From contig NZ_FYDG01000006.1 of the NCBI RefSeq assembly GCF_900187365.1, forward strand, positions 62,001 through 126,000: DNA of 64,000 nt, read 5' to 3'. How positions within the stretch are numbered: position 1 is the stretch's first letter; every line of letters begins with the position of its first letter. Under the pieces are notes generated by a model, which worked only from the letters and a program-made list of their open reading frames with translations, searched no databases and was not told the origin of the DNA. Positions 18,194-46,050 of the stretch are shown one piece after another. The DNA is from Rhodoblastus acidophilus (GTDB taxonomy: Bacteria > Pseudomonadota > Alphaproteobacteria > Rhizobiales > Beijerinckiaceae). A program made the translations under genes and the position numbers.

Positions 18194-18219
18194 GCGGGCG
18201 CGAGCTCTCTCGCGCCCGC
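18194..18219 (+). terminator. Hairpin after the DUF892 gene
   Basis: A ten-bp inverted repeat (18194-18203 with 18210-18219), loop of six bases, is followed by CTTCTT. The T tract is weak, so it may attenuate rather than stop transcription into 18324. Confidence 0.5.
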
Positions 18220-18323
18220 CTTCTTCGAAATTTCACCATGGGCGAAACCTTAAAAGCTTTTTCTGCGTTTTATTCCAGAGCCTTCGTTTAAGCCTTGAAT
18301 TCTCGCCCGCGCCAGGAGTTGTC

Positions 18324-22163: not shown

Positions 22164-22166
22164 AAC

Positions 22167-24538: not shown

Positions 24539-24638
24539 AATGCGGCGTTCCATCCATGCTCCAATATCGCGGGCGTGCGGGAACAAGGCGCGCGGGCGAA
24601 AAGTTTACCGCCTTGTTGCAGTCGTTTCGGGGTGGTTT

Positions 24639-25733
24639 ATGGGACTTCGGCTGGCCGTCGTTGGCGTCGGAAATTGCGCCTCTTCCTTGATCCAGGGGCT
24701 GGCCTATTACCGCGACGCCCAGCCGGGCGCGTCGATCCCCGGCCTGATGTCGCCCGACCTCGGCGGCTATCGCGTCGGCGACATCGAAATCGCCGCCGCC
24801 TTCGACGTGAGCGCCGCCAAGGTGGGGCGGGACGTCAGCGAGGCGATCCATGCCGCGCCCAACAATACCCATGTGTTCGCCAAAGTCGCGCCGCTCGGCG
24901 TCGCCGTGTCGCGCGGCCCGACCCTCGACGGACTCGGCCGCCATCTCGCCGAGCTGGTGGACGAGTCCGCCACGCCGCCCTGCGATGTCGCGCGCGTGCT
25001 GCGCGAAAGCCGCAGCGACGTTCTCGTCTGCTATCTCCCCGTGGGTTCGCAACGCGCGACGGAATTTTACATGCAGCAGGCGCTGATGGCGCGCTGCGGC
25101 GTGGTCAACTGCCTGCCGGTTTTCATCGCCTCGCGCCCGGAATGGCGCGCGCAGTTCGAGGCGCGCGGTCTGCCGATCATCGGCGACGACATCAAAAGCC
25201 AGGTGGGCGCGACCATCGTCCACCGCGTGCTCGCCAATCTGTTCGCCGAGCGCGGCGTGAAGCTCGATCGCACCTATCAGCTCAATGTCGGCGGCAACGC
25301 CGATTTCCGCAACATGCTGGAGCGCGAGCGGCTGGTTTCGAAAAAAATCTCCAAGACGCAATCCGTGCTCAGCCAATGTCCCGAGCCGCTCGCCGAAGGC
25401 GACGTCCATGTCGGCCCCAGCGACTACGTGCCTTGGCTCACGGACCGGAAGCTGGCTTTCATTCGCCTCGAAGGCTCCGGCTTCGGCGGAACGCCGCTGT
25501 CGGCCGAAGTGAAACTGGAAGTTTGGGACTCGCCCAATTCGGCGGGCGTGGTGATCGACGCCGTGCGCTGCGTCAAACTGGCGATGGACCGCGGCCAGGG
25601 CGGGGCGCTGGTGGGGCCGTCGAGCTGTTTTATGAAATCGCCGCCGCAACAGTTCACCGATGCGGAGGCGCGCGAACTGGTCGCGCAATTCGTCGCTGGC
25701 CCCGGACGATCCGCCGTGAGGAAAAAGGCGTGA
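24639..25733 (+). CDS. ino1: myo-Inositol-1-phosphate synthase
   Basis: This enzyme converts glucose-6-phosphate to inositol-3-phosphate through an NAD-dependent oxidation, aldol closure and reduction. The 364-residue length matches the short bacterial/archaeal form. Motifs are the NAD loop V-G-V-G-N-C-A-S-S, the middle [18 protein letters not shown] and [11 protein letters not shown]. The start at 24639 precedes the NAD loop; upstream codons lack homology. It is uncommon in proteobacteria, which hints at transfer, although base composition does not stand out. It overlaps the phosphatase gene by four bases (GTGA). Confidence 0.94.
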
Positions 25734-26320
25734 AGATCTTTCTGGTGCGGCATGCGGCCCATGACAATCTCGGCGGCTTCCTGGCGGGACGCACGCCGGG
25801 CGTCAGGCTTGGCGCGGCGGGTCGGGCGCAGGCCGAGCGTCTCGCGGAGCGGATGATGGAAGAAAGGCTGGATGCGATCGAAGCCAGCCCGCGCGAACGA
25901 ACCGTGGAGACGGCGGAGGCGCTCGCCCGCGCCTGCGGTCTCCCCCGGCCGCGCGTCGTCGATGCGCTGGACGAAGTGGATTTCGGCGACTGGACCGGCA
26001 AGGATTTTCAAACGCTCGACGCCGATCCGGCCTGGCGCAAATGGAACGCGCAACGGGCGATCGCGCGCACGCCGTCCGGCGAAAGCATGGGCGACGTGCA
26101 GGCGCGCGCCCTGGCGCATATCCACGCCTTGGTCAAGGCGGGGGCGCCGCGCGTCGCGCTGGTCACCCATGCCGACGTGATCAAGGCGATTGTGTGCGGC
26201 GTGCTCGGCCTTTCGTTCGATTCCTGGTCGCGCTTCGACATCGCCCCGGCTTCGATCACGCGCATCGCGCCGGTTTCGGCGGGTTTGCGGCTCGATGGCT
26301 TGAACGAAGTGGTCTGGTGA
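25730..26320 (+). CDS. Histidine phosphatase family protein
   Basis: This 196-residue protein has a phosphoglycerate-mutase-like fold with the catalytic L-V-R-H-A near residue 7, [17 protein letters not shown] and the second histidine in L-V-T-H-A-D-V. The loop reads R-H-A rather than R-H-G, as in SixA-like members. It starts at a GTG inside the ino1 stop, so coupling to inositol-phosphate synthesis is strong. I infer that it may dephosphorylate inositol phosphate or a related sugar phosphate. Confidence 0.88.
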
Positions 26321-27084
26321 TGGCGGCTCCGCTGACTGTCGAGGAAATCCGGCGCCAGGTGGCGGCGCTCGGTCCCTGGTTTCACAATCTCGATCTCAAC
26401 GGCGTGATGACCGCGCCGGATCATTTCCTCGGCGATTACCCCTGCGTCAAATGGCGGCGTTTCGCCGAGGCGCTCCCGTGCGACCTGTCGGGCTTAAGCG
26501 TGCTCGACATTGGCTGCAACGCCGGCTTCTACAGCCTCGAAATGAAGCGGCGCGGGGCGGCGCGCGTGGTCGGAATCGATTCGGACAAGGCCTATTTGCG
26601 GCAGGCGCGTTTCGCCGCCGGCGTCTGCGGCCTCGACATCGATTTCCGCAACCTGTCGGTCTATGACGTCGCGCGGTTGGGTGAGCGTTTCGACATCGTG
26701 CTGTTCATGGGCGTGCTCTACCATTTGCGCCATCCGCTGCTCGCGCTCGATCTCATCCGCGAGCATGTGGCCGGCGACCTGCTCGTGTTCCAATGTATGC
26801 TGCGCGGGAGCATGGAGGTCGAGCCGGTCGCGGAGGACGCCGATTTCTTCGATGCGACGCCGTTCGAGCGGCCGAGCTATCCCAGGCTGCATTTCATCGA
26901 GCAACGCTATGCCGGCGATCCCACCAATTGGTGGACGCCCAATCGCGCCTGCGTGGAGGCGATGCTGCGCTCCTCCGGTTTCGCCATCGCGGGCCATCCC
27001 GAGGAGGAAGTCTATCTGTGTCGCTGCGCGGGCGCGCCGGCGGGCGAGGGCGCGGTCTATCCCGCGCGGGGAGGCGAGATATGA
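26320..27084 (+). CDS. SAM-dependent methyltransferase (TIGR04290-like)
   Basis: This 254-residue class I methyltransferase has motif I V-L-D-I-G-C-N-A-G-F-Y-S, then V-V-G-I-D-S-D and L-F-M-G-V-L-Y-H-L-R-H-P. The G-P-W-F-H-N-L-D-L-N-G-V N-terminus and W-W-T-P-N C-terminal region resemble the CmoB-like group, and I recall an unassigned family named TIGR04290 with this pattern (unverified). The ATG shares a base with the phosphatase stop. The acceptor is probably a sugar or cyclitol of this locus. Confidence 0.85.
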   Translation: MAAPLTVEEIRRQVAALGPWFHNLDLNGVMTAPDHFLGDYPCVKWRRFAEALPCDLSGLSVLDIGCNAGFYSLEMKRRGAARVVGIDSDKAYLRQARFAAGVCGLDIDFRNLSVYDVARLGERFDIVLFMGVLYHLRHPLLALDLIREHVAGDLLVFQCMLRGSMEVEPVAEDADFFDATPFERPSYPRLHFIEQRYAGDPTNWWTPNRACVEAMLRSSGFAIAGHPEEEVYLCRCAGAPAGEGAVYPARGGEI

Positions 27085-28019
27085 TCGAAGCGGCGATGAT
27101 CTGGAACGAGCCCAACAACAAGTCGCATTGGGATCCCGAACTCGACCCGGACTGGCGCCTGTTCGCGGAAATGGCCATGCTCGCGGGGCAGGCGATCCGG
27201 GCGGAGAATGCGTCGCTCACCCGCGTGCTCGGCGGCATCTCTCCCATCGACCCGGCGTTCATCGTCAATATGAAGGGACGCGGCGTGCTGGATCACGTCG
27301 ACGCGGTCGCCGTTCATGGCTTTCCGCTGGACTGGAATCTCTGGCGGATCGACGAATGGCCGCAGAAAATCGAGGAAATCCGGGCGGTGACCGAGCTTCC
27401 CATCTGGGTCAGCGAAGTCGGCGTGTCGAGTTTCGGGGCGGAGGAGGTTCAGGCCTGGGGGCTGGAGCGCACGGCGCAGTTGCTGGCGGGGCGCGCGCCG
27501 CGCCTGCACTGGTATTCGCTGTTCGACCTGCCGCAGGCCTGGGGCGCCACCACGCGCCACAAGGAAGCGGAGGGCTCGTCCTATTACCGCCATTTCCACA
27601 TGGGCCTGATTCGCGCCGATGGAACGCCGAAGCAGGCGCTCGACGTATTCGCGCGCCATGCCCACATCTTTGGGCTGATGCAATGGTTCCGCTTCGAGGA
27701 CCCGCGCCTCGACGACGCCGTGGCCTGGATGAAACGGCTGGGCGTGCGCCGCCTGCGCACGGGTCTGTCGTGGGCGGATTCGTTTCGTCCCGGCGCGGAT
27801 CTGTTTTTCGACCGTATGATGCAGGCGCTGGCGGATTTCGAAGTGACCGTCACCTTCGCGTTCACGCCGGAGCATCGCGGCCTCGCGCCGCATCACACCA
27901 GCCCGCCGGTCGCGCCGGAGGAATTCGCGGAATTCTGCGCGCGCATGGTGCGGCGCTACGCCGGCTCAGTGCGGCTCACGCCGGAGGTTTCTCCGCCCGC
28001 GCCCGCGCGCGTTTCTTGA
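27081..28019 (+). CDS. Clan-A glycoside-hydrolase-like protein
   Basis: This 312-residue protein looks like a (beta/alpha)8 glycosidase related to GH39/GH5. It has I-W-N-E-P-N-N near residue 7, where the E of N-E-P would be the acid/base. A second glutamate in P-I-W-V-S-E-V-G-V-S near residue 112 could be the nucleophile. The barrel appears cut short at the N-terminus, since N-E-P normally lies after strand 4; the protein may be incomplete or a specialised variant. The ATGA overlap ties it to the methyltransferase; the 3' end overlaps the convergent epimerase gene by 44 bases. Confidence 0.75.
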   Translation: MIEAAMIWNEPNNKSHWDPELDPDWRLFAEMAMLAGQAIRAENASLTRVLGGISPIDPAFIVNMKGRGVLDHVDAVAVHGFPLDWNLWRIDEWPQKIEEIRAVTELPIWVSEVGVSSFGAEEVQAWGLERTAQLLAGRAPRLHWYSLFDLPQAWGATTRHKEAEGSSYYRHFHMGLIRADGTPKQALDVFARHAHIFGLMQWFRFEDPRLDDAVAWMKRLGVRRLRTGLSWADSFRPGADLFFDRMMQALADFEVTVTFAFTPEHRGLAPHHTSPPVAPEEFAEFCARMVRRYAGSVRLTPEVSPPAPARVS

Positions 28020-29007
28020 GCGGGATCATCGCCGCCTCGCGCGCCACGCCGGAGAAATGCGCGATCGTGCGCTTGAGCCCGGCGTCGAGCGCCACGCGCG
28101 GACGCCAGTCGAGCACGCGTTCGGCGATGGAGATATCGGGACGGCGGCGGCGCGGATCGTCGATCGGCAACGGGCGATAGGTGACGCCGGAGCGCGCGCC
28201 GGTGAGGCGCAGCACGCGCGCGGCGAGATCCTTCACCATCAGCTCGTCGGGATTGCCGAGATTGATCGCGCCGCGATAGTCGCTGTCGTGCAGCATCAGC
28301 CGCATCAGGCCGTCCACCATGTCGTCCACATAGCAGAACGACCGCGTCTGCTCGCCGGCGCCATAGATGGTGATGTCGTCGCCCGACAGGGCCTGCGTGA
28401 TGGCGTTGGATACGACGCGGCCGTCGTCGGCGCGCATGCGCGGGCCATAGGTGTTGAAAATGCGCGCGACCCGCACGTCCCCGCGTCGCGCGCGCAAAAA
28501 ATCGAAGGCGAGGGTTTCCGCCGCGCGTTTGCCCTCGTCATAGCAGGCGCGCGGCCCCGTCGGATTGACATGGCCCCAATAGCTCTCGCGCTGCGGATGG
28601 GTTTCGGGATCGCCATAGACTTCGCTGGTGGAGGCGAGCAGGAAGCGCGCCTCGTGCGCCTGCGCCAGCGCCAGCAAATGCCGCGTGCCCAGCACATTGG
28701 TCAGCAGCGTATGCTCGGGATCGGCCTGATAATGCGGCGGCGAGGCCGCGCAGGCCAGATTGAAAATATACGCCAGTCGGCGTCCCGAGCGCGTCAGCCG
28801 CGCCGGCAGCGGATCGGTGACGTCGGCGTCGAGAATGTCGAAGCGCGGCTCGCGTTCGAGATGGCGCAAATTGTCGTAGCGGCCGGTGAGGAAATTGTCG
28901 AGGCACAGCACGCGCCAGCCCCGCGCCAGCAGGGCGTCGCTGAGATGGGAGCCGATGAATCCGGCGCCGCCCGCGACCAGGGCGACGGTCTCGCGCTGTT
29001 GGCCCAT
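27976..29007 (-). CDS. UDP-glucuronate decarboxylase-like NAD epimerase/dehydratase
   Basis: This 343-residue extended SDR has the NAD motif G-G-A-G-F-I-G-S-H near residue 13, S-T-S-E-V-Y-G-D-P, and the catalytic pair Y156 and K160 in C-Y-D-E-G-K-R. The N-T-Y-G-P-R-M and D-G-R-V-V-S-N motifs are those of UDP-glucuronate decarboxylases, which make UDP-xylose. A related dTDP- or UDP-sugar dehydratase activity cannot be excluded. It is the last gene of the minus-strand glycan operon, 13 bases after the CgeB-like gene. The C-terminal 14 codons overlap the convergent glycosidase-like gene. Confidence 0.87.
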   Translation of the reverse strand: MGQQRETVALVAGGAGFIGSHLSDALLARGWRVLCLDNFLTGRYDNLRHLEREPRFDILDADVTDPLPARLTRSGRRLAYIFNLACAASPPHYQADPEHTLLTNVLGTRHLLALAQAHEARFLLASTSEVYGDPETHPQRESYWGHVNPTGPRACYDEGKRAAETLAFDFLRARRGDVRVARIFNTYGPRMRADDGRVVSNAITQALSGDDITIYGAGEQTRSFCYVDDMVDGLMRLMLHDSDYRGAINLGNPDELMVKDLAARVLRLTGARSGVTYRPLPIDDPRRRRPDISIAERVLDWRPRVALDAGLKRTIAHFSGVAREAAMIPLKKRARARAEKPPA

Positions 29008-29020
29008 TGCAAGTCCTTCC

Positions 29021-30103
29021 TCAAGCCGGTTGGGCGGCTTTTTGCGCCGCCGCGATATGGCCGGCCAGCTCTTCGGCGCGATGCGCGGCGGTGTGGGCGT
29101 CGAGCACGCGGGCGCGCGCGCCGCGCGCGAGGGCGCGCCGCTGCGCTTCCGTCATATTGCGCAGAGCGTGCAACACGTCGTCGGCGTCAGCGGCGACGAC
29201 GATGTCCGCGCCGGGCGCGAACAGCGACTCGAGCCCGCGCCACGCGTCGGAAATGATCGGCGTTTCGCAGGCGGCGGCTTCGAACAGCCGCACGCTGGGG
29301 CTGTAGCCGGCGCGGACCATGTCGCGGCGCGTGGCGTTGAGCGTGAAGCGGCAGGCGCCGTAAAAGGCGGCGTGGTCCTGCGGCCCGACATGGTCGATGC
29401 GCGCGACATTGGCTGGCCAGTCGATCGTATCGCGATATTGCGGGCCGGCGACGACGAAGCGCAGCTCGGGCGCGCGTCGCGCCGGTTCGATCAACAGGCG
29501 TTCGATCACGGGCTGGCGATCGGGCGCGTAGGTGCCGAGATAGCCGAGATCGTAACGCGTCGCCAAGTCGAGCGGGCGGTAAAGCTCGGGGTCCACCGCG
29601 CAATAGAGGGCGCGCGCCGCCTTGGCCTGGAAGTCGCGGGCGAGGCGCGCGAGCGTGGGGCCGCCCGTGAAGGACAGATAGAGATCGAAGCCGGGGATCA
29701 TCTCGGCGGAGAGATAGGGACAGGCGTTGCGTTCCAGCGCGGCGAGAGTCACCGGCGTGTCGATGTCGTAGAAGGCGGTCACGCCGCGCGCATGATGCTG
29801 GACGAAGCCGCAGATTGCGGCGCCGTCGGGCGTGTAGGAGCCGACGACGACAGCGCCCGCTCGTGCGATCTCGCCGCGAAAATGGGAGAGATCGTCAAGG
29901 CCTTGATAAAATTCCAGCGTGCAGAAATCGGGATTTTCGAGGTCGCGGTGGTCGGCGTACCAGGGCTGGTCCCGTTCGAGAAATAGAACCCGGCGCCCCC
30001 CGGCCGCATAGGCTTTCAGCAAGGCGCGATAGGTGGTGGCGTGGCCGTTTCCCCAGGACGAAGACAGGCTGAGGCCGAGAACGACGAGATCGAACCCGTT
30101 CAT
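29021..30103 (-). CDS. CgeB-like glycosyltransferase 1
   Basis: This 360-residue GT-B protein of the CgeB/Glyco_trans_1_2 type shows N-terminal S-S-S-W-G-N-G-H-A-T-T-Y-R, the middle L-G-Y-L-G-T-Y-A-P-D-R-Q-P, and C-terminal S-V-R-L-F-E-A-A-A-C-E-T-P-I-I-S-D. CgeB of Bacillus acts on spore-coat glycosylation; the target here is unknown. It overlaps the next CgeB-like gene by four bases. It shares about the same length and motif order as the two upstream paralogues, implying ancient tandem duplication. Confidence 0.87.
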   Translation of the reverse strand: MNGFDLVVLGLSLSSSWGNGHATTYRALLKAYAAGGRRVLFLERDQPWYADHRDLENPDFCTLEFYQGLDDLSHFRGEIARAGAVVVGSYTPDGAAICGFVQHHARGVTAFYDIDTPVTLAALERNACPYLSAEMIPGFDLYLSFTGGPTLARLARDFQAKAARALYCAVDPELYRPLDLATRYDLGYLGTYAPDRQPVIERLLIEPARRAPELRFVVAGPQYRDTIDWPANVARIDHVGPQDHAAFYGACRFTLNATRRDMVRAGYSPSVRLFEAAACETPIISDAWRGLESLFAPGADIVVAADADDVLHALRNMTEAQRRALARGARARVLDAHTAAHRAEELAGHIAAAQKAAQPA

Positions 30104-31188
30104 GCCGAAAGCCTTTCCCGCCTAGCGTCGAACGCCTGACGCAGCAGCGCGTCAACCTGCGCCGCGCGTCTCGCGTAAGTGTGCTCGGCGCGGATGCGCG
30201 CGCCCGCCGCCTCGCCGATTCTTCGCGCGCCCGCGGGGGTGAGATGGGCGAGAATCGTCGCGACGTCGGCGCCGTCGCGCGCCACCAGAATTTCCTCGCC
30301 GGGGGTGAGGAAAAGCTCGACGCCGTCCCAGGCGTCGGTGATCAGGCAGGCGTCCGCGCCGGCCGCCTCGAACACGCGGGTCGCTGGCGAGAATCCATTG
30401 CTGGCCATGCTGTCGCGGGCGATGTTGAGCACGGCGAGCGCGCTGGAGTTGAGCGCATTGTGATCGCGCGTAAAAACATGGCCGAGCTTGCGCACATTGG
30501 CGGGCGCGGCGCGGTCGTCCCATCCGGCGCCGCCGAGCAGGAAGGATTTTTCGCGCAGGCGCGCGGCGGGGGCGAAGAAGAAGCGCGCCACCCGCTCCTC
30601 GCGGTCCGGCAGACGGTTGCCGAGAAAGGCGAGATCGCAGGCGAAGCGCGGGTCGGGCGCGACGCGAAAATGGGTTTCGGGGTCGAGCGCATTATAGACC
30701 GGCGCGCAGGCGCGCGCGCCAAAACCGTGGTAGCCGCGCGTCACGGGATCGCCGCCGCCATAGGTAAGCACGAGGTCGAAGGCGGGGAGCGCGCGCCGCA
30801 GCGGATGGTCCGACGCGCCGCGCATGTCCGCGAGCGTGGCGGGCGCGTCGACGTCCCAGTAGATCCGCAAGGGCCGAACCGCCGAGGCGACGCCGGCCAG
30901 AAGCTCGTCGTCGAACACGCCGACGCCGCTGGCCTTCACCGCGACATCCGCCGCATCGGCCTCGGCGAGGACGCGCCGCACGCCCTCCGGCGTCGCCGGA
31001 TAGACCACCACCCGCGCCCAGTCGGGCGGGTCGATATCGCGATGGCTCTGGCGGTCGTAGGCGTCTGGTTCAAAGAAGGTGATGGCGTGGCCGAGGGCGG
31101 CGAGGTTCTTCAGCAGGCCGCGATAATAGGTGGCCGCGCCGTTCCAGTAAGAGGACAACAGGCTCGACCCGTAAAAGGCGATCTTCAT
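30100..31188 (-). CDS. CgeB-like glycosyltransferase 2
   Basis: The second of three tandem CgeB-like proteins has 362 residues. Features are M-K-I-A-F-Y-G-S-S-L-L-S-S-Y-W-N-G-A-A-T-Y-like start (positions 1-21 of the protein), D-L-A-F-L-G-N-R-L-P-D-R, and T-R-V-F-E-A-A-G-A-D-A-C-L-I-T-D. The family's donor is not known; the loop before the C-terminal glutamate differs from GT 1, suggesting different donors. Both ends overlap neighbours by four bases. Confidence 0.86.
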   Translation of the reverse strand: MKIAFYGSSLLSSYWNGAATYYRGLLKNLAALGHAITFFEPDAYDRQSHRDIDPPDWARVVVYPATPEGVRRVLAEADAADVAVKASGVGVFDDELLAGVASAVRPLRIYWDVDAPATLADMRGASDHPLRRALPAFDLVLTYGGGDPVTRGYHGFGARACAPVYNALDPETHFRVAPDPRFACDLAFLGNRLPDREERVARFFFAPAARLREKSFLLGGAGWDDRAAPANVRKLGHVFTRDHNALNSSALAVLNIARDSMASNGFSPATRVFEAAGADACLITDAWDGVELFLTPGEEILVARDGADVATILAHLTPAGARRIGEAAGARIRAEHTYARRAAQVDALLRQAFDARRERLSA

Positions 31189-32291
31189 GCGGCGCTCTCC
31201 CTTGGCGCCGAAAGGCGCGAGACAATCGCCAGCAGCTCCGCCGCGCGATGGGCGCAGCTATGGCGCGCGCGAATGGTTTCGAGCCCGTTGGCGACGAGGT
31301 CGGCGCGCAGATCGGGATCGTCCCGCAGGCGCGCGAGATGGCTGGCGCATTCGGACGCGTCGCGCGCGAACACGAAATCCTGGCTGGGGCGGAACAGGTT
31401 TTCGCTGTCGCGCCACGGCGCGCTGACCAGTGGAATGCCGCAAGCCAGCGCCTCGAACACCCGAATGGTCGGGATGCCCGGCAGGACCGTGGCGTAAGCG
31501 CGGCGCGGCACATGCACGGTGGCGAGGGCGCCCGCGAAAATTTCCGGCGCGCTGGCGTTGGCGAGCCAGCCGCGCCAGCGCGCGCCGTAGCGGCGCAGGG
31601 TCGCGCGCGCGGATTCGGGATAGCGCACGCCGTAAATGTCCAGCGGCAGCCCGACCGCCGCCGCCGGCTTGAGCAGGAATTCCTCGATCTCGGCGCTGCG
31701 CTCGTCGTCGCCCCAATTGCCGATCCACACCAGGCCCTCGCGCGGACCCTCAGTCTCCGGCGGACGGAAATGGCGGATATCGGCGGCTTCATGCCAGACA
31801 AAGGCGCGCGCGCCCCAGCCGGCGCGGGCGTAAACGTCCGCCAGCGCCGCGCCGAACGCCAGCACGCCGTCATAGCCGGATAGATCCAGCGCGCGGATTG
31901 CGTCGGGGTCGCTGACAGCGCGATGATGGGTGTCGTGGAACAGCAGGGTGAAGCCGGCGCCTTGCGCGCGCAGCCGTCCGAGCGCGGCGACCAGTTCGGG
32001 CGGGCTCCATTCGTGGACCAGCACGAGATCGGCGCCGTCCACAGCCGCCGTCGCCTGATCCAGATGCGACCAGCGCGCCGGCTTCAGGCCGGGATAAGCG
32101 GTGCGAAACGGATGCAAGCCCGCTTCGCCATGGTCCGCGAGCAGGTTGGCGAGGCTCCACGACGAGGCCGGCTCCATCGAGCGCACATCGTGGCCGGAGA
32201 GGGCCAGTTCGCGCAACAGGCCGCGCAGGAAATGCGCGTTGCCATGGTTCCAGCACGACAGCAGCGAATGGGTGAAATAGACGATCTTCAT
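31185..32291 (-). CDS. CgeB-like glycosyltransferase 3
   Basis: This third CgeB-like protein has 368 residues. It starts M-K-I-V-Y-F-T-H-S-L-L-S-C-W-N-H-G-N-A-H, has V-W-I-G-N-W-G-D-D-E-R in the middle and T-I-R-V-F-E-A-L-A-C-G-I-P-L-V-S-A at the C-terminus. The ATG at 32291 matches its paralogues' starts; the longer frame upstream belongs to the other reading frame of the preceding gene. Four-base overlaps link it to both neighbours, so stoichiometric translation is likely. Confidence 0.86.
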   Translation of the reverse strand: MKIVYFTHSLLSCWNHGNAHFLRGLLRELALSGHDVRSMEPASSWSLANLLADHGEAGLHPFRTAYPGLKPARWSHLDQATAAVDGADLVLVHEWSPPELVAALGRLRAQGAGFTLLFHDTHHRAVSDPDAIRALDLSGYDGVLAFGAALADVYARAGWGARAFVWHEAADIRHFRPPETEGPREGLVWIGNWGDDERSAEIEEFLLKPAAAVGLPLDIYGVRYPESARATLRRYGARWRGWLANASAPEIFAGALATVHVPRRAYATVLPGIPTIRVFEALACGIPLVSAPWRDSENLFRPSQDFVFARDASECASHLARLRDDPDLRADLVANGLETIRARHSCAHRAAELLAIVSRLSAPRESAA

Positions 32292-33394
32292 GCCACCGCT
32301 CCCGTGGAGCGTCGCGCAAGCGCGGAGCGATAGATCGCCGCCGTGGCTTCGGCCATCGCGGTCGCGCTGTAATCCGCCGCGCGGGCCGTCGCGGCCTCGC
32401 CCATGCGCGTGCGCAGGGCGGGATCGTCGGCGATTTGATTGACCGCGTCGGCGAAGCCGCGCGGCAAGCGCGGCGGAACGAACAGGGCCGCGCCGTGCCA
32501 GAGTTCGCGGAAGGTCTCGATGTCGCTCAGCACGAGCGGACAGCCGGCCTGCGCCGCCTCCAGCGCCGACAGGCCGAAAGGCTCGTAGATCGCGGCGGAC
32601 ACGAAGATCGGCCGCTCCGCCAGCATCTGGCGCAGCACTGCGGAATCCAGCGGGCCGAGCAGGCGCGCGTGGCGGGCGGAGAAGCGCTCCCCGCAGCCGT
32701 CGGGGCCACCGCAGGGGCCGGCGAGCCGCAGCGGAACGCGCATGGCGGCGGCCGCCGAATCGAGCGTCGCGGCGTTCTTGCCACGGTCCCACAGGCGGCC
32801 TGCCGAAAGAGCATAGGCGGCGGGACCTCCTCCGTAGCGCGGCGGCGGCGCGGCGCGGCCGTTATGCACGACGAACGGGGCGATGCGGTAAAGGTCGCTC
32901 AACACCGCCGCATAGGCGCGGGTGGGGCACAGGACCGCGTCGGCCCGCGACAGCGCGTCGCGCAACATCCGCGTGCGCCAAAGGAAATCGCCCGCAAGCG
33001 GCGCGTCCTCAACCGCCAACAGCCAGCTGGCGACGCAGGAGTGGACGGCGCAGACCACCGGCGCGGAAAAATCGGCCAGCGCATAAGTGGGGGAATTGAG
33101 ATGAACCAGATCGGCGCGGCTGGCGCGCGCCAGCGCGGCGACGCGACCGGCGGCGGCGGACGTCTCTTCCGGCGAGCGCGTCAGCCAGTCGAGCGGCAGC
33201 CCGGTTTCGCGCAGCTCCACGCCCTCGATCGCCTGGGCGGCGGCGAATTGCGCCTCGCTCAAGCCGGGGCCGAGCACGGCGAGCGTGGTTCGCACGCCCA
33301 TCGGCGCGAGGGCCCGGGCGAGGTCGAGCGCATAGGTGAACACGCCCCCGACCGCATCGGTCGTCATGAACAGGTTCAGCGGCAATGCGCGCAT
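32288..33394 (-). CDS. Family 4 glycosyltransferase
   Basis: This 368-residue GT-B enzyme has the N-terminal loop T-D-A-V-G-G-V-F-T-Y near residue 12, A-G-R-L-W-D-R-G-K-N, and the retaining signature E-P-F-G-L-S-A-L-E-A-A-Q-A-G-C-P-L-V near residue 272. GT4 enzymes use nucleotide sugars with retention. I chose the ATG at 33394, which overlaps the radical SAM gene's end by 19 bases; the frame stays open upstream but without homology. It is part of the minus-strand glycan operon. Confidence 0.9.
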   Translation of the reverse strand: MRALPLNLFMTTDAVGGVFTYALDLARALAPMGVRTTLAVLGPGLSEAQFAAAQAIEGVELRETGLPLDWLTRSPEETSAAAGRVAALARASRADLVHLNSPTYALADFSAPVVCAVHSCVASWLLAVEDAPLAGDFLWRTRMLRDALSRADAVLCPTRAYAAVLSDLYRIAPFVVHNGRAAPPPRYGGGPAAYALSAGRLWDRGKNAATLDSAAAAMRVPLRLAGPCGGPDGCGERFSARHARLLGPLDSAVLRQMLAERPIFVSAAIYEPFGLSALEAAQAGCPLVLSDIETFRELWHGAALFVPPRLPRGFADAVNQIADDPALRTRMGEAATARAADYSATAMAEATAAIYRSALARRSTGAVA

Positions 33395-34677
33395 GAGGCC
33401 TCCAACACCGGCAGGGGGAGGGGGCTGTCCTCCTGGATGTCGCTGAAGCGCGTGAACTGCCGCAGGTAATAGGCATGGGCGCGCTCCCAGGCCTCGCCGT
33501 CCGGCTCCCCCCACAGACGGCGATAGTCGGGCGAGGACGGATAGGGATAGAGCGGCACGGGATCGTTGGCCCAGACGCCGGCCCTGCGCAGTTTGTCGCG
33601 CCAGCTCTCGACCAGCGCGACGTCGTCGCCGGGCGATTCGATCAGATTGGCCTGCACGAAAGGCACGCGCCGCCGCGCATGGATCAGCCGCTCCGCCAGC
33701 GCGTCGGTGGACAGCCGGCAGTTTTTGTCGAGCGTGGCGCGTCCCTCGGGCGTCAGGCTTTCCACCCCCGCTTCGATCGAGACGCAGCGCGCTTCGCCCA
33801 GCAGATCGAGCATGGAGGGCTTCCACAAGTCGATGCGGGTCTGGATGCCGAACGGAATGCGCCGCGCCACCAAAGCTTCGAGCAGAGGCTTCTGCGGCAG
33901 GAAGATTTCGTCGATGAAATAGAGATAGGTCGCGCCCTGCGCCATCAGGCGGTCGATTTCATGCAGCAGGGGCGAGAGGTCGCGGCGGCGATAGGCGTCG
34001 CGAAAGTCGATCTTGGCGCAGAAACTGCAATGATAGGGGCAGCCGCGCGACGCCTCCACTTCGGCGCCGGGGCCGTCGGGCAGCGCGTCGAAGCGGTGGT
34101 GATGGTGGCGATGCGCCGCGATCATCGCGTCGGGCCATGTCAGCGCGGGAAGATCGGTGAAAACGGTGGCGCGCGGCTCCCCGGTCGTGCGCACCGCTTC
34201 GCCGTCCCGGAACGCCAGCCCCGCAATGGAGCCCAGCGGCGAGCCATTGGCGATCTCGAGCAGCGCCTCCTCGCATTCGCCGCGCACGACAATGTCGGCG
34301 CCAAGCTTGGCCAGTGTGGTTTCGGGCGTCACCGAGCCATGCGGTCCGACAATGACGGTGCGGCCGCCGTCGTCGCCCAGCGCGAGCAGGAACGCCCGCG
34401 GCGTGCGCAATTCCGGCGGGGCGCAGCGCCAGAACAGATAGCTCGGCGCCGTGGGGACGACGGTGAAATCGGCGCCGAACGCCTTGACCTCCCGGGCGAT
34501 CTCGTCGTCGTCGCGCTCCATCAGCCCGCCGTCGCACAACAGGGTTTCATGGCCGGCGCGCTCCAGCAGCGCCTTGGCGCAGCCCAGCTCCAGCGGCAGA
34601 TGCGGCGCGCGGCAGCCGAAATAGATCGAGCGGTCGAAGCGCCAGCGCGGGTTGACGAGAGCGACGCGCATGGTCAC
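33376..34677 (-). CDS. B12-binding-type radical SAM protein (TIGR04295-like)
   Basis: This 433-residue protein has an N-terminal Rossmann-like domain of the B12-binding type and a radical SAM barrel with C213, C217 and C220 in C-P-Y-H-C-S-F-C. The usual D-x-H-x-x-G cobalamin motif is not evident, so B12 binding is doubtful. A run of histidines lies near residues 189-194. I recall a family named TIGR04295, seen with the methyltransferase type found at 26320 (unverified). It could methylate or rearrange a sugar or lipid carrier. It starts at a GTG inside the upstream stop (GTGA); an ATG two codons later is the alternative. Confidence 0.87.
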   Translation of the reverse strand: MTMRVALVNPRWRFDRSIYFGCRAPHLPLELGCAKALLERAGHETLLCDGGLMERDDDEIAREVKAFGADFTVVPTAPSYLFWRCAPPELRTPRAFLLALGDDGGRTVIVGPHGSVTPETTLAKLGADIVVRGECEEALLEIANGSPLGSIAGLAFRDGEAVRTTGEPRATVFTDLPALTWPDAMIAAHRHHHHRFDALPDGPGAEVEASRGCPYHCSFCAKIDFRDAYRRRDLSPLLHEIDRLMAQGATYLYFIDEIFLPQKPLLEALVARRIPFGIQTRIDLWKPSMLDLLGEARCVSIEAGVESLTPEGRATLDKNCRLSTDALAERLIHARRRVPFVQANLIESPGDDVALVESWRDKLRRAGVWANDPVPLYPYPSSPDYRRLWGEPDGEAWERAHAYYLRQFTRFSDIQEDSPLPLPVLEASCAHCR

Positions 34678-35720
34678 GCCTCCGCCCAGATTTTGACGCG
34701 CGGTTCAGATTCGGCGAGCCAGCCGGCGAGGCGCGTCACGCCCTCCCGCCAGGGCAGCGGCTCGGCGAGCGCGAGGGCGGCCCGGACGCGGCGGGCGTCG
34801 GACACGTACCAGCGCTGGTCGCCGGCGCGCCATGGCAGGAAGAAGACGCGCGCGCGCCGGTTGAACAGGGCTTCGCCCTGGGCGATCACGTCGAGCAGGG
34901 TCACCGCATTGGCCGGTCCGCCGCCGAGGTTGAACGCCTGGCCCGCGATGGCGCCGATCTGCTTCCAGGCGGCGACATAGGCCGCCACGGCGTCCTCGAC
35001 GAACAGCACGTCGCGCACCTGGCGTCCGTCGCCATAAATGGAGATCGGTTCGCCCGCGTGAACGCGCCGCAACAGATGCGCCACCCAGCCTTGATCCTCC
35101 GTGCCCATCTGGCGGGGACCATAGACGCAGCTCATGCGCATCACCGCGGTCGAAAGGCCGAAGGAGCGCGCGTAATCCAGCACATATTGGTCGGCCGCGC
35201 CCTTCGAGCAGCCATAGGGCGTGTGGAAGTCGAGCGGTTGTTTCTCGTTGACGCCCTGCAGCGCCAGCGACAGATCGACCGGCCTGTACGCCTCGCGCTG
35301 CAGGTGCAGCGGCACGGCGGCGAGGTCGCCATAAACCTTGTTGGTGCTGGCGAAGATCAGCGGCGTGCGCGGGGCGCGCAGGCGCAGGATTTCCAGCAGG
35401 CCGAGCACGCCCCGCACATTGATCGAGAAATCTTCCAGCGGCTGTTCGAGGCTGGTCGTCACCGCCACCTGGGCCGCGAAATGGAACACGGCGGCGGCGC
35501 CCGCCACCGCGTCGGCGCAGCTCTGGATGTCACGGATGTCGGCGCGGTGGAAGGCGACGCGGTCATGATGGCGGCGCTTGAGCCAGGCCACATTGCGCTC
35601 GACGCCGGGCCGCGACAGATTGTCGAGAATCAGAACGTGTTCGCCATCGGTGGCGAGGCGGTCCGCCAGATTGGCGCCGATGAAGCCGGCCCCGCCGGTG
35701 ATCAGGACGGGCGCGCTCAT
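34674..35720 (-). CDS. NAD-dependent epimerase (CDP-paratose 2-epimerase-like)
   Basis: This 348-residue extended SDR has T-G-G-A-G-F-I-G-A-N near residue 7, the catalytic Y-G-C-S-K motif near residue 163, and C-V-Y-G-P-R-Q-M-G-T-E-D-Q-G-W. The last motif is characteristic of the RfbE/Tyv CDP-paratose 2-epimerase group. The CDP-sugar assignment is not certain since no CDP-glucose genes adjoin. The ATG at 35720 is the family start; it overlaps the upstream epimerase stop by four bases. Confidence 0.87.
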   Translation of the reverse strand: MSAPVLITGGAGFIGANLADRLATDGEHVLILDNLSRPGVERNVAWLKRRHHDRVAFHRADIRDIQSCADAVAGAAAVFHFAAQVAVTTSLEQPLEDFSINVRGVLGLLEILRLRAPRTPLIFASTNKVYGDLAAVPLHLQREAYRPVDLSLALQGVNEKQPLDFHTPYGCSKGAADQYVLDYARSFGLSTAVMRMSCVYGPRQMGTEDQGWVAHLLRRVHAGEPISIYGDGRQVRDVLFVEDAVAAYVAAWKQIGAIAGQAFNLGGGPANAVTLLDVIAQGEALFNRRARVFFLPWRAGDQRWYVSDARRVRAALALAEPLPWREGVTRLAGWLAESEPRVKIWAEA

Positions 35721-36802
35721 GCCACCAGCCCCCGCGCTTGCAACTCGCGCCGCGCCTGCTCCGCGCCGTCCTCCGCGCTCTGTTCGCGCAGCCATGCCGC
35801 GAGTTCGGCGACGCCCGCCGCAAAGGCCGTTTTCGGCGCAAAGCCGAGTTCGGCGCGCGCCTTGGAAATGTCGGCGAAGCAATGGCGGATGTCGCCGGCG
35901 CGTCGTTGCCCGGTCAGCTCCGGCGCGATGTCCAGGCGGTCCACGGCTTGGGCCAGAGCACCCGCCACATCGAGGATGTCGCGCGATTCGCCGCTGCCGA
36001 TATTGTAGACTTGGCCGGCGGCGCCCGGCGCGTCGAGCGCGGCGAGAAAGGCCGCGGCCACATCGGAGACATGAATGAAATCGCGCCGCTGCCGGCCGTC
36101 CTCGAACACCAGCGGCGCCCGTCCGTTGAGGAGCCGCGCCGCGAAAATGGCCAGCACGCCGGTATAGGGATTGGAAAGGGCCTGGCCGGGGCCATAGACG
36201 TTGAACAGGCGCAACGCCACGCCCTCCATGCCATAGGCGCCGCACACGTTCAGCGTCAGCCGCTCCTGCGCATATTTGGTGAGGGCGTAGACCGAGGCGA
36301 GCGAGGGGCGCTTGTCCTCGGGCGTGGGAACCGGCGCGAGGGGACGCCCCGATTCGTCCAGCGGATCCCAGCGGCCCGGGCGCGTCGCCTCGACGATGCG
36401 GCCGTCGGCGTCGCGGTACAGCCCCTCGCCGTAAATGCTCATGGAGGAAGCGACCACCACCCGCCGCACCGGCCTGGCGATCAGCGCCTGCATCAGCACG
36501 GCGGTTCCGAGATCGTTGGCCGCGACATAGCGTTCGATCTCATACATGCTCTGGCCCACGCCGACTTCGGCGGCGAGGTGGACCACTTGATCGACGCCGT
36601 CGAGCGCCGCCGCCACGCGCGCGGGGTCGCGCATATCGCCGACCACCAGTTCGGCGCCGGCGGGAATGGAATTGGCGCGCGCGCCGTGAACTTGCGCGAT
36701 CAGCGCATCGAACAGGCGCACGCTGTCGCCGCGCGCGACAAGGGCGCGGGCGACGTGACGGCCGATGAAGCCGGCCCCGCCGGTGATGAGGATGTTGGCC
36801 AT
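35717..36802 (-). CDS. NAD-dependent epimerase/dehydratase
   Basis: This 361-residue extended SDR has T-G-G-A-G-F-I-G-R-H near residue 7, S-S-M-S-I-Y-G-E-G-L-Y, the catalytic Y-A-L-T-K pair, N-V-Y-G-P-G-Q-A and D-F-I-H-V-S-D-V. It resembles UDP-glucose 4-epimerases and dTDP-glucuronate-type enzymes; the exact substrate is not assignable. It lies 12 bases after the 87-residue gene, which carries the operon's stress promoter. Confidence 0.87.
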   Translation of the reverse strand: MANILITGGAGFIGRHVARALVARGDSVRLFDALIAQVHGARANSIPAGAELVVGDMRDPARVAAALDGVDQVVHLAAEVGVGQSMYEIERYVAANDLGTAVLMQALIARPVRRVVVASSMSIYGEGLYRDADGRIVEATRPGRWDPLDESGRPLAPVPTPEDKRPSLASVYALTKYAQERLTLNVCGAYGMEGVALRLFNVYGPGQALSNPYTGVLAIFAARLLNGRAPLVFEDGRQRRDFIHVSDVAAAFLAALDAPGAAGQVYNIGSGESRDILDVAGALAQAVDRLDIAPELTGQRRAGDIRHCFADISKARAELGFAPKTAFAAGVAELAAWLREQSAEDGAEQARRELQARGLVA

Positions 36803-36814
36803 GGGCGGCGCCGT

Positions 36815-37078
36815 TCAGTGATGGCGCCGGATGAGTTTGATGAAGCGGCTCTCTTCTTCGTCCTGATAAAGAAACGCCAGTTTGCTGCGCTCAAAGGTTT
36901 CGAAGAACTGGTCCCAGCTGATCGGCTCCAGCCGGTCTTCCTGCGGACCGAAATCGACGCGCAGCAAGCCGGCGTCGCGCGCATTGCCCGTGCCCTTCAC
37001 GCGCGCCGGCCGGCCGCCGCGCGCCTCGACCCAGCGGCGGATGGTGGCATGGTCAGTGGTGGTTTTGCCTTCGGACAT
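36815..37078 (-). CDS. 87-residue conserved hypothetical protein, first gene of the glycan operon
   Basis: This small hydrophilic protein has T-T-D-H-A-T-I-R-R-W-V-E-A-R-G-G-R-P-A-R-V near its start and ends A-F-L-Y-Q-D-E-E-E-S-R-F-I-K-L-I-R-R. Similar proteins of unknown function exist widely in bacteria, from memory. The ATG at 37078 is chosen because a longer frame would run across a perfect EcfG-type promoter at 37127. Only 12 bases separate it from the epimerase gene, so it likely leads the nine-gene operon that ends at 27976. Confidence 0.8.
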   Translation of the reverse strand: MSEGKTTTDHATIRRWVEARGGRPARVKGTGNARDAGLLRVDFGPQEDRLEPISWDQFFETFERSKLAFLYQDEEESRFIKLIRRHH

Positions 37079-37126
37079 GGGGGCAACTCCATTGTTCCGC
37101 CAGTAAGATGTCAAATATGGCGGGAC

Positions 37127-37151
37127 AACGGACTGTCGCACGGAAGGTTCC
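37127..37151 (-). promoter_or_regulatory. EcfG-type promoter of the glycan operon
   Basis: On the minus strand GGAAC (complement of 37147-37151), 16 bases, CGTT (complement of 37127-37130), an exact match 48 bases before the ATG at 37078. No terminator is visible between the 87-residue gene and the epimerase gene. Confidence 0.75.
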
Positions 37152-37168
37152 AGCGCGCGGCGGGATTC

Positions 37169-38845
37169 TCAATGCAAGTCTTGAGCCGGCGTCGTCAGAT
37201 CAATGCGGAGCCGGTCGCAATAGTTCCGGTAAAGGCCGGAAATAATATCCTTGTTGCGGCCGTCCGGGGTTTGTCTGAGCGAAAACCACCAGAGGCCGAC
37301 TTGTTGCGCGAGATAGCACGGGCGCAAGAAAGCCAGCAGCGCGGGGTCGATCGCGCAGTCGCGGCATGCGAGGTCTTGCAGCAGCGCTTCGGTTTCGTTT
37401 GGCGCAAGCGTGAATTCCGTGATGGCGCCGGCGACGTCCCATGCGAGATCCTGGCAGCCGACCAGCGTATGGTCGGCGCAATGATCGACGGCGTCGGTCT
37501 TGATGAAGCGCCCGTCCGCCGCGATCAGCCATTCCCAGGCGTGCAGGCGGTTGTCGGTGGCCACGGGCCGCACCTTGCCCCCGAGCGCCTGCGCCCGGTC
37601 CGACCACGCGCGCGCGGGCGGATCCAGCTTCAGCGCGAGCGACGCATTGCGACACAGCATGTCCGCCAGGCCCTGCAGCGAAGCGCCGGCGTAAGGAGCC
37701 GGCGGAAGGCGCGCGGCGCGGAAGGCGAGATAATCCGCCAGATGCGCCAAAAAGGCTTTTCGCGCGGCGCCTGAAGGTTGAAGCGGGCGTCCCGGCAGCC
37801 ATGGCTCGATGGTGAAGCCGTCGCGCAGGCCGAGCATTTCGGGCGAGAAACCGCCCGCCGCAAGTTTTTTCGCGCGCTCGAAACTGGCGGCGCCGTAGGG
37901 GCCGAGGCCGGCGAACCGCAACAGAAAAACTCCGCGTTCGCCTTCCACCAGAAATTTGCGGCGCTCCCAGATCGCGCCCGCCGGCGCCTGTTCGAGACCG
38001 GGCCGCGCCTGGCGCCAACCGCCGCCCGTCACATCGCGCGGCGGCCCGCGCAACGGGCCGGTCACATCAGGCCAATGGGTCCATGGCGCCGGCTCGGTCT
38101 CGGCGACGCGATGCTCCAGCCGGCGCCAAAGCGGCAGCAGCGCCGGATCGGCGCCGGGGCCGGGGGGATTGCCGTGCGAGGGAAACAGGACAATGCGATG
38201 CAGCGGCGCGCCCAGCTCCAGCAGGGCGCGGACGACGGCCAGGAACGAGCTGCCGGAAAAACCGGGGCCTTCGTCGACGACGGCGATCAAGCCTGTCGCG
38301 CCTTTCAGCCGGGCGGCGACCTCGGGCGAAAACCGCGCCTCGCGCCGCAGCGGCGGCCCGGTCGGGCGCAAGCTGGTGACGAAGGCGGCGGCCGAAGCGG
38401 CGGCGACCATCGCCGCAAGGCCCATTCCAATGCTGCGGACGCCGATGACCGCCTCGACGCCCGGCGTCCGCCGCGCCGAGGCCGCATAGGCCTCCGGCGA
38501 CACGCCGTAGAAGGCGAAGCCCTCCTGCCGGCGGCAGAGGATGCGCTCGGGCAGGGCGGTCGCCGCCAGCGCGTCGAGCGCGCCTCGCGTTGCATGAAAA
38601 GACGCTTCGGTCGGGCGCAGCAGCAGATCGGCGAGCGCCCGAAGCGCGGCGATCGGCGCGGTCTCGAGCGCCGCTTCGGCGTCGGCGAGCCCCTGCGCCA
38701 GTTCGCTCGCCAGAACGAAGGCGCAGACAATCGGCTCGCGCCGTCGCTCCGGCGCGGCGGCCGCCGCGTCGTCCATGGCGGCGCGGATGCGGGCGATCTC
38801 CGCATGGGGCGCGGCGCTGCGATCCGCGTCCCCGAACACCAGCAT
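37169..38845 (-). CDS. Phosphoribosyltransferase-like/kinase-like two-domain protein
   Basis: The 558-residue product has a central segment resembling type I phosphoribosyltransferases. G-V-R-S-I-G (residues 135-140) and R-P-T-G (160-163) are followed by a PRPP-loop-like V-V-D-E-G-P-G-F-S-G-S-S (189-200). From about residue 300 it looks like an aminoglycoside-phosphotransferase-type kinase fold (R-K-F-L-V, then F-T-I-E-P-W-L-P-G-R-P-L), ending with D-L-A-W-D-V-A-G-A. The usual catalytic H-G-D loop reads H-A-W-E-W, so kinase activity is doubtful. I recognise no named family. The ATG shares a base with the CBS gene stop, so the pair is coupled. Confidence 0.75.
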   Translation of the reverse strand: MLVFGDADRSAAPHAEIARIRAAMDDAAAAAPERRREPIVCAFVLASELAQGLADAEAALETAPIAALRALADLLLRPTEASFHATRGALDALAATALPERILCRRQEGFAFYGVSPEAYAASARRTPGVEAVIGVRSIGMGLAAMVAAASAAAFVTSLRPTGPPLRREARFSPEVAARLKGATGLIAVVDEGPGFSGSSFLAVVRALLELGAPLHRIVLFPSHGNPPGPGADPALLPLWRRLEHRVAETEPAPWTHWPDVTGPLRGPPRDVTGGGWRQARPGLEQAPAGAIWERRKFLVEGERGVFLLRFAGLGPYGAASFERAKKLAAGGFSPEMLGLRDGFTIEPWLPGRPLQPSGAARKAFLAHLADYLAFRAARLPPAPYAGASLQGLADMLCRNASLALKLDPPARAWSDRAQALGGKVRPVATDNRLHAWEWLIAADGRFIKTDAVDHCADHTLVGCQDLAWDVAGAITEFTLAPNETEALLQDLACRDCAIDPALLAFLRPCYLAQQVGLWWFSLRQTPDGRNKDIISGLYRNYCDRLRIDLTTPAQDLH

Positions 38846-39420: not shown

Positions 39421-40368
39421 TCAGACCAAGGCTTCCAACCCAAACACGGCGAAGCGGTCGCCGCGGTCGCGCCAGGCGCGTGCGAGCCGCCATCCCGCCT
39501 CATCCGCCATCGCCTCGAACATGGCCAGCTCGTATTTGCGCGAGCTTTCCGTATGGATGGAATCTCCGGCCTTGAAGGGGAACAATCGGCCGGCGACCGC
39601 GACCTCGCGCGAGTCGAGGCTGACCAGGTGCATTTCGACGGCCGAATCCGCCTCGTTCCAGCGCGCCTCATGCGCGAACCTGCTCAACGGGAAGCCGCCG
39701 TCCAGCTCGCGATTGATCCGCGCCAGCAGGTTGAGGTTGAACGCGGCGGTGACGCCCTCGCCGTCGTCATAGGCGTCGAGCAATATCCTCCGGTCCTTTT
39801 TCAAATCGACGCCGATCACCGCTTTGCCGTTCTGGACATGACGCCGCATGCGCGAAAGGAAGGCGATGGCTTCGCGGCGGTTGAGATTGCCGATGGTGGA
39901 GCCGGGGAAAAACGCCGCGCGCGGCCCTTGCGGCAATTCGGGCGCGTCGAAGTCGCGCGTGAAGTCGGCGAGGATCGGCTGGACGTCGAGTCCCGGAAAC
40001 CGCCCGCCGATGCGCCGCGCCGTCCGGCCGAGCACGCCCGCCTCGATGTCGATCGGCGCATAGACCCGCGGCGCGCGCAGGGCTTCGATCAGGATTTCCG
40101 CCTTGACCCCGGCGCCGGCGCCATATTCGAGCAGCACCGCGCCTTCGCCGCAGAAATCGGCGATGTCCCGCGCATGACGCCACAAAATCTCCGCTTCGGC
40201 GCGGGTGGGATAGTAATCGTGGAGGCGGGTGATGGCCTCGAACAGCTCGCTGCCGCGTTCGTCGTAGAGCCAGCAGCAGGGAATGGATTTTTGCGGCCGC
40301 GACAGGCCGGACACCACGGCGGAACAAAAGGCTTCGTCCCAGCGCGTTCGCACCTCGCCGTCAGTCAT
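39421..40368 (-). CDS. egtD: L-histidine N-alpha-methyltransferase
   Basis: EgtD trimethylates histidine to hercynine, the first step of ergothioneine synthesis. The 315-residue protein is full length. It has Y-D-E-R-G-S-E-L-F-E-A-I-T near residue 35, the SAM motif L-E-Y-G-A-G-A-G, F-F-P-G-S-T-I-G-N-L and the C-terminal R-K-Y-E-L segment. It overlaps egtB by eight bases and is downstream of it, so both are made together. Confidence 0.96.
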   Translation of the reverse strand: MTDGEVRTRWDEAFCSAVVSGLSRPQKSIPCCWLYDERGSELFEAITRLHDYYPTRAEAEILWRHARDIADFCGEGAVLLEYGAGAGVKAEILIEALRAPRVYAPIDIEAGVLGRTARRIGGRFPGLDVQPILADFTRDFDAPELPQGPRAAFFPGSTIGNLNRREAIAFLSRMRRHVQNGKAVIGVDLKKDRRILLDAYDDGEGVTAAFNLNLLARINRELDGGFPLSRFAHEARWNEADSAVEMHLVSLDSREVAVAGRLFPFKAGDSIHTESSRKYELAMFEAMADEAGWRLARAWRDRGDRFAVFGLEALV

Positions 40369-41632: not shown

Positions 41633-41782
41633 AAGTCGGCCCGCCTCCGCGCCAGCAGTCCGGTTAATCGTCGCGCGGGGCAGAAGTTCCGCCTCCGCCG
41701 GCCGAAAGGGGTCAGGCCAAGCTTGCTTCAGGCGCAATCGCGACCATCTGACAGGAGAGCCTTTTTCATCAGGGAGAGTGAG

Positions 41783-46025: not shown

Positions 46026-46050
46026 GGAACGAATGGGCGCTCAGGCTGTT
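46026..46050 (+). promoter_or_regulatory. Possible EcfG-like promoter of the AI-2E family gene
   Basis: GGAAC (46026-46030), 16 bases, TGTT (46047-46050), 30 bases before the ATG at 46081. It is back to back with the cyoA site. Confidence 0.45.

Follow-up and report, generated by a model that had tools for sequence, protein, structure and literature searches.

Can the general stress response of a bacterium command a whole pathway for a modified sugar chain, and what would such a pathway make? This question is raised by a 64,000-nucleotide stretch of Rhodoblastus acidophilus DNA (contig NZ_FYDG01000006.1, positions 62,001 to 126,000 of the forward strand; hereafter the window), in which nine closely packed minus-strand genes, running from 37078 to 27976, follow a candidate promoter site for the general stress sigma factor EcfG. 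The EcfG regulon serves survival of drying, salt, heat and oxidants in bacteria of soil, leaves and root nodules, and to our knowledge much of its output has yet to be identified. The overall explanation that we favour, with some reserve, is that a module of the general-stress regulon makes a soluble glycan, with the nine genes acting together with a second, converging unit.

EcfG-type sites and the nine-gene run

The original prediction had placed an EcfG-type site before an 87-residue gene, here called P87 (36815–37078, minus strand), and the site, GGAACCTTCCGTGCGACAGTCCGTT (GGAAC-N16-CGTT), was located on the minus strand at 37127–37151, 48 bp 5′ of the P87 ATG and 17 bp past the stop of an upstream gene (37169–38845). 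It fits the consensus GAAC-N16,17-C/GGTT published for EcfG (accessible part of PMC4814048), and the consensus GGAAC-N17-20-GTT of Sphingomonas melonis (accessible part of PMC6599016) covers the relaxed form, GGAAC-N17,18-GTT, used here. Eight further genes start after a 12-bp spacer (36803–36814), as had been proposed; every gap in the run is at most 13 bp, with the junctions after the spacer being overlaps of 4, 4, 19, 4, 4 and 4 bp and then a gap of 13 bp. Scanning 24400–37400 gave terminator-like sites at chance level (10 against 9.1 in shuffles), with none within 36802–36830, and no sigma-70-like site by consensus, in agreement with the claimed absence of a terminator inside the run.

Profile and structure matches also upheld the proposed gene identities, all on the minus strand. 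P87 itself (small alpha/beta model, pLDDT 82) has no Pfam or NCBIfam match, and its predicted fold matches no PDB entry at E ≤ 0.001. It is followed by SDR1 (35717–36802), which profile and structure-relative searches assign to the NAD-dependent sugar epimerases/dehydratases with no clear specificity, and by SDR2 (34674–35720), whose closest solved relatives are CDP-tyvelose 2-epimerases (PDB 9rl0, E 2.1e-74; 1orr, 8.6e-74; next PDB match only 2.5e-33), a relationship that does not imply the substrate. The B12-binding radical SAM protein (33376–34677) matches TIGR04295 over the full length (positions 1–422 of 422; 687.9 bits, cut-off 400), and the radical SAM motif CxxxCxxC is present in all seven aligned sequences. 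Profile matches then identify a GT4 glycosyltransferase (32288–33394) and three CgeB-like glycosyltransferases of family PF13524, namely CgeB1 (31185–32291), CgeB2 (30100–31188) and CgeB3 (29021–30103); CgeB3 gave low-level PDB matches to designed proteins only, which were disregarded. The last gene encodes SDR3 (27976–29007), whose four best PDB matches are all UDP-glucuronate decarboxylases (UDP-xylose synthases; 4gll, E 2.8e-97, to 2.3e-96; next match 3.9e-40), making it by closest solved relatives a member of that group. An identity as UDP-apiose synthase was prompted by PMC5607165, which in its accessible part describes bacterial enzymes of this type, reports no conserved operon and gives the identity no support; it was considered and not adopted, and apiose rather than xylose is a possible product of SDR3.

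Conservation was judged in loci found by a scan of GTDB species genomes with an alignment of seven TIGR04295 sequences, using the best 80 of at least 208 confirmed relatives; from record titles and general taxonomy we take all 80 to be Alphaproteobacteria. The units tested were the window and 79 loci (L036 having no SDR1), each over 250 bp 5′ of the leading gene, that is P87 if close before SDR1 on the same strand and otherwise SDR1, with 100 sets of dinucleotide shuffles and the inner genes of the run as controls. Units were also counted by genus label, assigned on the basis of record titles, with the window and Rhodoblastus carrying two labels though probably one genus, and with one label for each metagenome-assembled genome (MAG) except L038 and L047, which share one. 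The relaxed site preceded the leading gene in 42 of the 80 units and 22 of the 37 genus labels (shuffles: mean 0.54, maximum 2), and the published consensus did so in 19 units and 17 labels (shuffles: 1.46, maximum 5). Before the inner genes the relaxed site was found at SDR2 in 3/80, at SDR3 in 2/80, and at the radical SAM gene (0/80), GT4 (0/80), CgeB2 (0/77) and CgeB3 (0/77) not at all. Mesorhizobium carries an SDR1 site in each of its 18 loci, and with this genus excluded 24 of 62 leader units remain. Together with a gene order kept in 58 of the 80 loci, described below, these counts bear out the recurrence of order and motif in related genomes.

The window also holds the genes of the stress switch itself. 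An EcfG-type sigma factor (11115–11687, minus strand) adjoins the NepR anti-sigma factor (11687–11881, minus strand, start approximate; PF18557 profile match at 11735–11833), one of three NepR matches in the genome, and a PhyR response regulator lies at 12056–12841 on the plus strand (PF22029, PF22233), with a second PhyR at 48012–48812; a histidine kinase of HisKA_2 type that carries a receiver domain and an HWE kinase are encoded in the window as well. Relaxed sites number 16 in the window, against 3.08 expected from genome density and 1 for the reversed control, with a Poisson P of 1.8e-7 for a window whose choice was not random as regards this test. Ten of the 16 stand 14–67 bp before gene starts, including those of NepR-EcfG, the second PhyR, P87 and the companion gene INO1, and six do not stand at such a distance or overlap a start, as judged against a hand-made gene list that includes open reading frames called by coding bias. 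By its look, 11072–48006 is a general-stress island, rich in sites and beside the EcfG, NepR and two PhyR genes. Elsewhere, an EcfG-like sigma factor gene lies directly before SDR1 in Tistrella (52% identity over 165 aligned positions), where no relaxed site precedes SDR1; EcfG, NepR and PhyR all share locus L068, with EcfG in 2 and NepR and PhyR in 1 each of 83 loci overall; and NepR is present in 6/6 relatives having TIGR04295 over cut-off. The cluster shares with the EcfG (PhyR-NepR) regulon the type of site, its spacing and where it stands relative to genes, and it has the switch genes of that regulon in the same window.

Several observations weigh against EcfG control. The strict motif, GGAAC-N15-18-CGTT, occurs 8 times in the window against 2.0 in shuffles, but genome-wide 151 times against 178 for its reversed control, with 227 against 266 for the relaxed form; within 500 bp of SDR1 the strict CGTT form was seen in 13/79 loci, compared with 7 and 6 in two controls. 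With no genome-wide enrichment and few loci above controls, the strict motif was rejected as proof by itself, and the motif alone is weak evidence because it is genome-wide not commoner than its reversed control. The relaxed pattern was chosen once the upstream regions had been viewed, a bias that the label counts and inner-gene controls are meant to offset. Matches were also seen on the opposite strand 5′ of SDR1, in 27/79 loci, which we ascribe mostly to divergent P87 and INO1 promoters, and before CgeB1 the relaxed site occurs in 10/78 (three genus labels), within the GT4 gene region, where it could reflect coding bias or an internal promoter. Finally, 38 of the 80 units lack a relaxed site, including all of Azospirillum, Belnapia and Methylorubrum and 11/12 of Methylobacterium, so EcfG control is not universal. 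The real evidence for such control is the position and conservation of the site. Sequence comparison, together with the EcfG, NepR and PhyR genes in the window, gives good support to the placement of the cluster under the general stress sigma factor, and we consider its regulation by EcfG highly probable. Six loci from Methylobacterium and Methylorubrum (L041, L045, L051, L053, L055, L058) have in common, as seen by eye, GGAACAAAGATCCT before SDR1 with no GTT at the usual distance, perhaps for a different regulator. Three loci of Bradyrhizobium and one from an alphaproteobacterial MAG (L094, L100, L106, L109) share, again by eye, a GGAAC...CTTC-like element before SDR1.

The site could also belong to P87 alone, with P87 the only stress-regulon member and the glycan genes transcribed from a separate promoter within or next to it, in which case the site would say nothing about the glycan. 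Searching 41 genomes, own genome included, TIGR04295 was found over cut-off in 5, P87 in 6 and both in 4 (hypergeometric 7e-4); all six P87 genes bear a relaxed site, at −55 to −73, and two of these genes are in genomes without TIGR04295 over cut-off, as a site of P87's own would have it. SDR1 follows P87 immediately in the window and in L031, L032, L046, L052 and L082 (gaps of 12, 10, 14, −4, 12 and 32 bp), the unit of L082 having no relaxed site. In all 18 Mesorhizobium loci P87 points away from SDR1, yet SDR1 has its own site in every one, and 17 more loci without a detected P87 also show a site before SDR1; in the window the two genes are just 12 bp apart, and the companion INO1 unit has a site of its own. 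On these grounds stress control of P87 alone seems improbable. P87, which heads the operon in this lineage, is probably a general stress protein and not a glycan enzyme, since its site also occurs in two genomes without TIGR04295 over cut-off and it is divergent in Mesorhizobium.

A converging module and the spread of the cluster

The run of nine genes is real, and the reading of it as the whole system for the chain captured only half of it, the conserved partner being a plus-strand module of four genes (24639–28019) that converges on the run. This module begins with INO1 (24639–25733, start set by profile match), an inositol-3-phosphate synthase relative scoring 506.5 bits against TIGR03450 (cut-off 638), and continues with a histidine-phosphatase (PGM-like) protein identified by profile (25730–26320), an S-adenosylmethionine (SAM) methyltransferase matching TIGR04290 (26320–27084; 381.6 bits, cut-off 300) and a TIM-barrel glycosidase-like protein whose relatives are annotated as beta-xylosidase (27081–28019); the 3′ end of the glycosidase gene overlaps that of SDR3. 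An EcfG-like site of the form GGAAC-N18-GTT lies on the plus strand at 24580–24605, 33 bp before INO1, with an A before GTT where the published consensus demands C or G. Counting the window, the relaxed site preceded INO1 in 31/55 units (12/22 labels) and the published consensus in 21/55 (shuffles: 0.72, maximum 4), with none of the relaxed form before the methyltransferase (0/46) or the glycosidase (0/43). In three Bradyrhizobium loci, where INO1 comes first, the site stands before INO1 and not before SDR1. That both operons serve one joint pathway is in our view very probable.

A seven-gene core was found in the same order in the 58 loci mentioned above (27/37 genus labels), and eight genes in 41; of the other 22 loci about nine are short contigs and the rest lose, duplicate or replace a gene. 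At least one companion gene lies within the fetched flank of 59/80 loci (INO1 in 54, phosphatase 51, methyltransferase 46, glycosidase 40). The distribution of TIGR04295 is wide yet patchy: it was over cut-off in 4 of 150 genomes sampled across the phylum and in 7 of 60 relatives, own genome counted in both, and in 9 of 72,556 annotated plasmid records. The plasmid of Bradyrhizobium sp. 195 has a fuller set, to which a nucleotidyltransferase, one more glycosyltransferase and a phosphopentomutase are added, and the Azospirillum lipoferum plasmid nearly the same set without SDR3. TIGR04295 genes occur in Bradyrhizobium sp. 195 on both NZ_CP082163.1 and NZ_CP082162.1, two different plasmids.

The original prediction knew of no described system of this make-up. 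The set is not unique, recurring in many genera with two of its proteins named as NCBI families, and the part that stands is that no functional description of the cluster was found in the titles and abstract openings of open-access PMC articles. In the same titles and abstract openings there was no report of the cluster as a member of the EcfG regulon; supplementary regulon tables lay outside this search and may list the genes. Neither 'inositol' nor 'glycosyl' occurs in the main text of PMC4814048 or of PMC8092242, and TIGR04295, TIGR04290, Rta_06860 and B12_rSAM_oligo have no mention in the searched open-access PMC literature. Both families, TIGR04295 (B12_rSAM_oligo) and TIGR04290 (meth_Rta_06860), are matched above cut-off within the conserved cluster and are 'hypoth_equivalog' models without stated function; the name B12_rSAM_oligo hints that its author linked the model to oligosaccharides. 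A pathway of 12–13 genes with conserved order and stress sites in many genera, holding two conserved families without an assigned function, gives a direct route to identifying a stress product.

The candidate product and its alternatives

The pathway that we propose would start with PhyR drawing NepR off EcfG under stress, whereupon RNA polymerase carrying EcfG would initiate at about 37120 on the minus strand and about 24610 on the plus strand, giving two converging operons that encode a single soluble pathway. INO1 and the phosphatase would supply myo-inositol or its phosphate; SDR3 would convert UDP-glucuronate to UDP-xylose or a related pentose, SDR1 and SDR2 would epimerise nucleotide sugars, and the B12/radical SAM enzyme would alter a sugar by C-methylation or a change of skeleton. 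GT4 and the three CgeB-like transferases could then build a short chain on inositol, to be methylated by the TIGR04290 enzyme and trimmed or remodelled by the glycosidase, with the finished product remaining cytoplasmic and protecting the cell under stress. We infer promoter activity, each reaction, the product, its location and its role from sequence.

None of the 13 proteins contains a hydrophobic 19-residue window at or above 1.8, compared with 11 and 6 in two membrane controls, and no flippase, polymerase or exporter is found among the 13 genes or within the corresponding runs at three annotated loci. A cytoplasmic product appears most likely, because the gene set includes no exporter, polymerase or membrane enzyme; that it is a cytoplasmic inositol oligosaccharide is a little short of an even call. 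More tentatively, it may be a widespread alphaproteobacterial stress metabolite, namely a cytoplasmic, inositol-based, methylated oligosaccharide of xylose type with a B12/radical SAM-altered sugar, produced from two EcfG operons with a circularly permuted glycosidase finishing it, and a counterpart of the inositol- and methyl-sugar protectants of mycobacteria.

The operons might also be stress-regulated and yet serve the cell surface, their enzymes making a glycan or a glycolipid head group for it (capsule, lipopolysaccharide side group or exopolysaccharide), with transport encoded elsewhere. Such SDRs and glycosyltransferases commonly serve surface sugars, and among solved structures the glycosidase profile scores best against PslG, which belongs to the Psl polysaccharide system. 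Glycosyltransferase and exopolysaccharide genes are EcfG-dependent in S. melonis according to the accessible part of PMC6599016. Exported polysaccharide loci of the Wzx/Wzy or ABC type differ from the 13 genes of the window, which include no flippase, polymerase or exporter, and none was recognised among the recurring neighbour families either, as judged by eye with not all entries inspected. The glycosidase, moreover, has no transmembrane-like segment, and its WNEPN motif at residue 8 leaves no space for a signal peptide. An exporter could be encoded elsewhere in the genome, which would count against a cytoplasmic product. In Azospirillum a potassium channel gene adjoins the glycosidase and an MFS transporter gene lies about 7 kb away. 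We regard a surface product as a real but minority possibility and keep the cytoplasmic oligosaccharide as our working proposal.

This proposal has a likeness to the mycothiol and mycobacterial methylated polysaccharide pathways, which, as generally described, have an inositol-phosphate synthase, a GT4 enzyme, a phosphatase, a methyltransferase and soluble enzymes; the cluster differs from them in its other transferases, three nucleotide-sugar SDRs and B12/radical SAM enzyme. By analogy with mycothiol, the product might be a low-molecular redox or thiol-like cofactor, and the INO1 match to the mycothiol model TIGR03450, the weak match of GT4 to MshA (41.5 bits) and the presence of a phosphatase would all suit such a cofactor. 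Both mycothiol models, however, miss their cut-offs, MshA (TIGR03449) requiring 462.5 bits, and by sequence INO1 is a relative of inositol-phosphate synthases and not a TIGR03450 equivalog; four transferases and three SDRs also exceed what mycothiol synthesis is generally held to need. We consider a thiol-like cofactor quite unlikely, and prefer the inositol oligosaccharide.

The glycosidase-like protein and neighbouring genes

The glycosidase has no Pfam match over cut-off, and its AlphaFold2 model, built from 26 sequences (pLDDT 84, pTM 0.84), is a TIM barrel with the motifs WNEPN, starting at residue 8, and WVSE/TE; the conserved glutamates are residues 10 and 112. The top Foldseek match of the model is an unrelated TIM barrel (4o1e, E 4.2e-4), followed by GH10, GH2, GH39 and GH128 enzymes with probability 1.00, over part of the chain only and with TM-scores near 0.4. 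By profile, PslG is the best-scoring solved relative (E 1.7e-5), and the barrel model and both motifs are also those of PslG/GH39 glycosidases; the window protein differs from these in the swapped order of its halves and in having no signal or transmembrane-like segment. A co-linear match to the GH39/PslG barrel was not obtained, as residues 3–152 aligned with PslG 132–300 (20.9 bits) and 198–295 with PslG 22–130 (5.9 bits, not significant alone), an order common to all 26 aligned sequences. After rotation, tried at one point, a profile of 8 and not 26 sequences gave one continuous match of 8–264 to 25–284 (26.6 bits), which favours circular permutation; whole-sequence scores are nearly equal (27.5 and 28.3 bits), and rotation of the single sequence alone gave no PslG match. 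The protein may be a circularly permuted, PslG-like barrel of clan GH-A, which, if true, would be a useful case of barrel evolution.

The families recurring round the loci were surveyed by crude gene calling with eleven representatives inspected. One recognised by eye is a sugar-phosphate nucleotidyltransferase (9 labels), annotated as such on the Bradyrhizobium sp. 195 plasmid; others are topoisomerase IB and a small membrane protein (4 labels), while several entries are antisense shadows and some could not be named. In Tistrella, genes for topoisomerase IB, Ku and LigD lie downstream of the cluster. Genes for EgtD and EgtB (ergothioneine) occupy 39421–41911 of the window, upstream of the nine-gene run and on the same strand. 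The list of EcfG-dependent genes of S. melonis includes, in the accessible part of PMC6599016, a TIGR03440 (EgtB) gene with an adjacent-numbered methyltransferase gene; namesakes of genes on that list are thus EgtB/EgtD in the window and Ku and topoisomerase IB in Tistrella.

Between the genes for cytochrome oxidase subunit II and an AI-2E family transporter, at 46026–46052, two EcfG-type sites overlap on opposite strands, and oxidase genes lie near the cluster on the Azospirillum, Bradyrhizobium and Tistrella plasmids too. A second sugar-related run (18135–24538) encodes a GT4 enzyme, a glycogen-debranching-like protein, UdgX, a polysaccharide pyruvyl transferase and an FrhB-like protein. The gene directly upstream of the P87 site, at 37169–38845, encodes a protein of 558 residues that matches nothing in Pfam or PDB and whose relatives occur near the cluster in several other genera.

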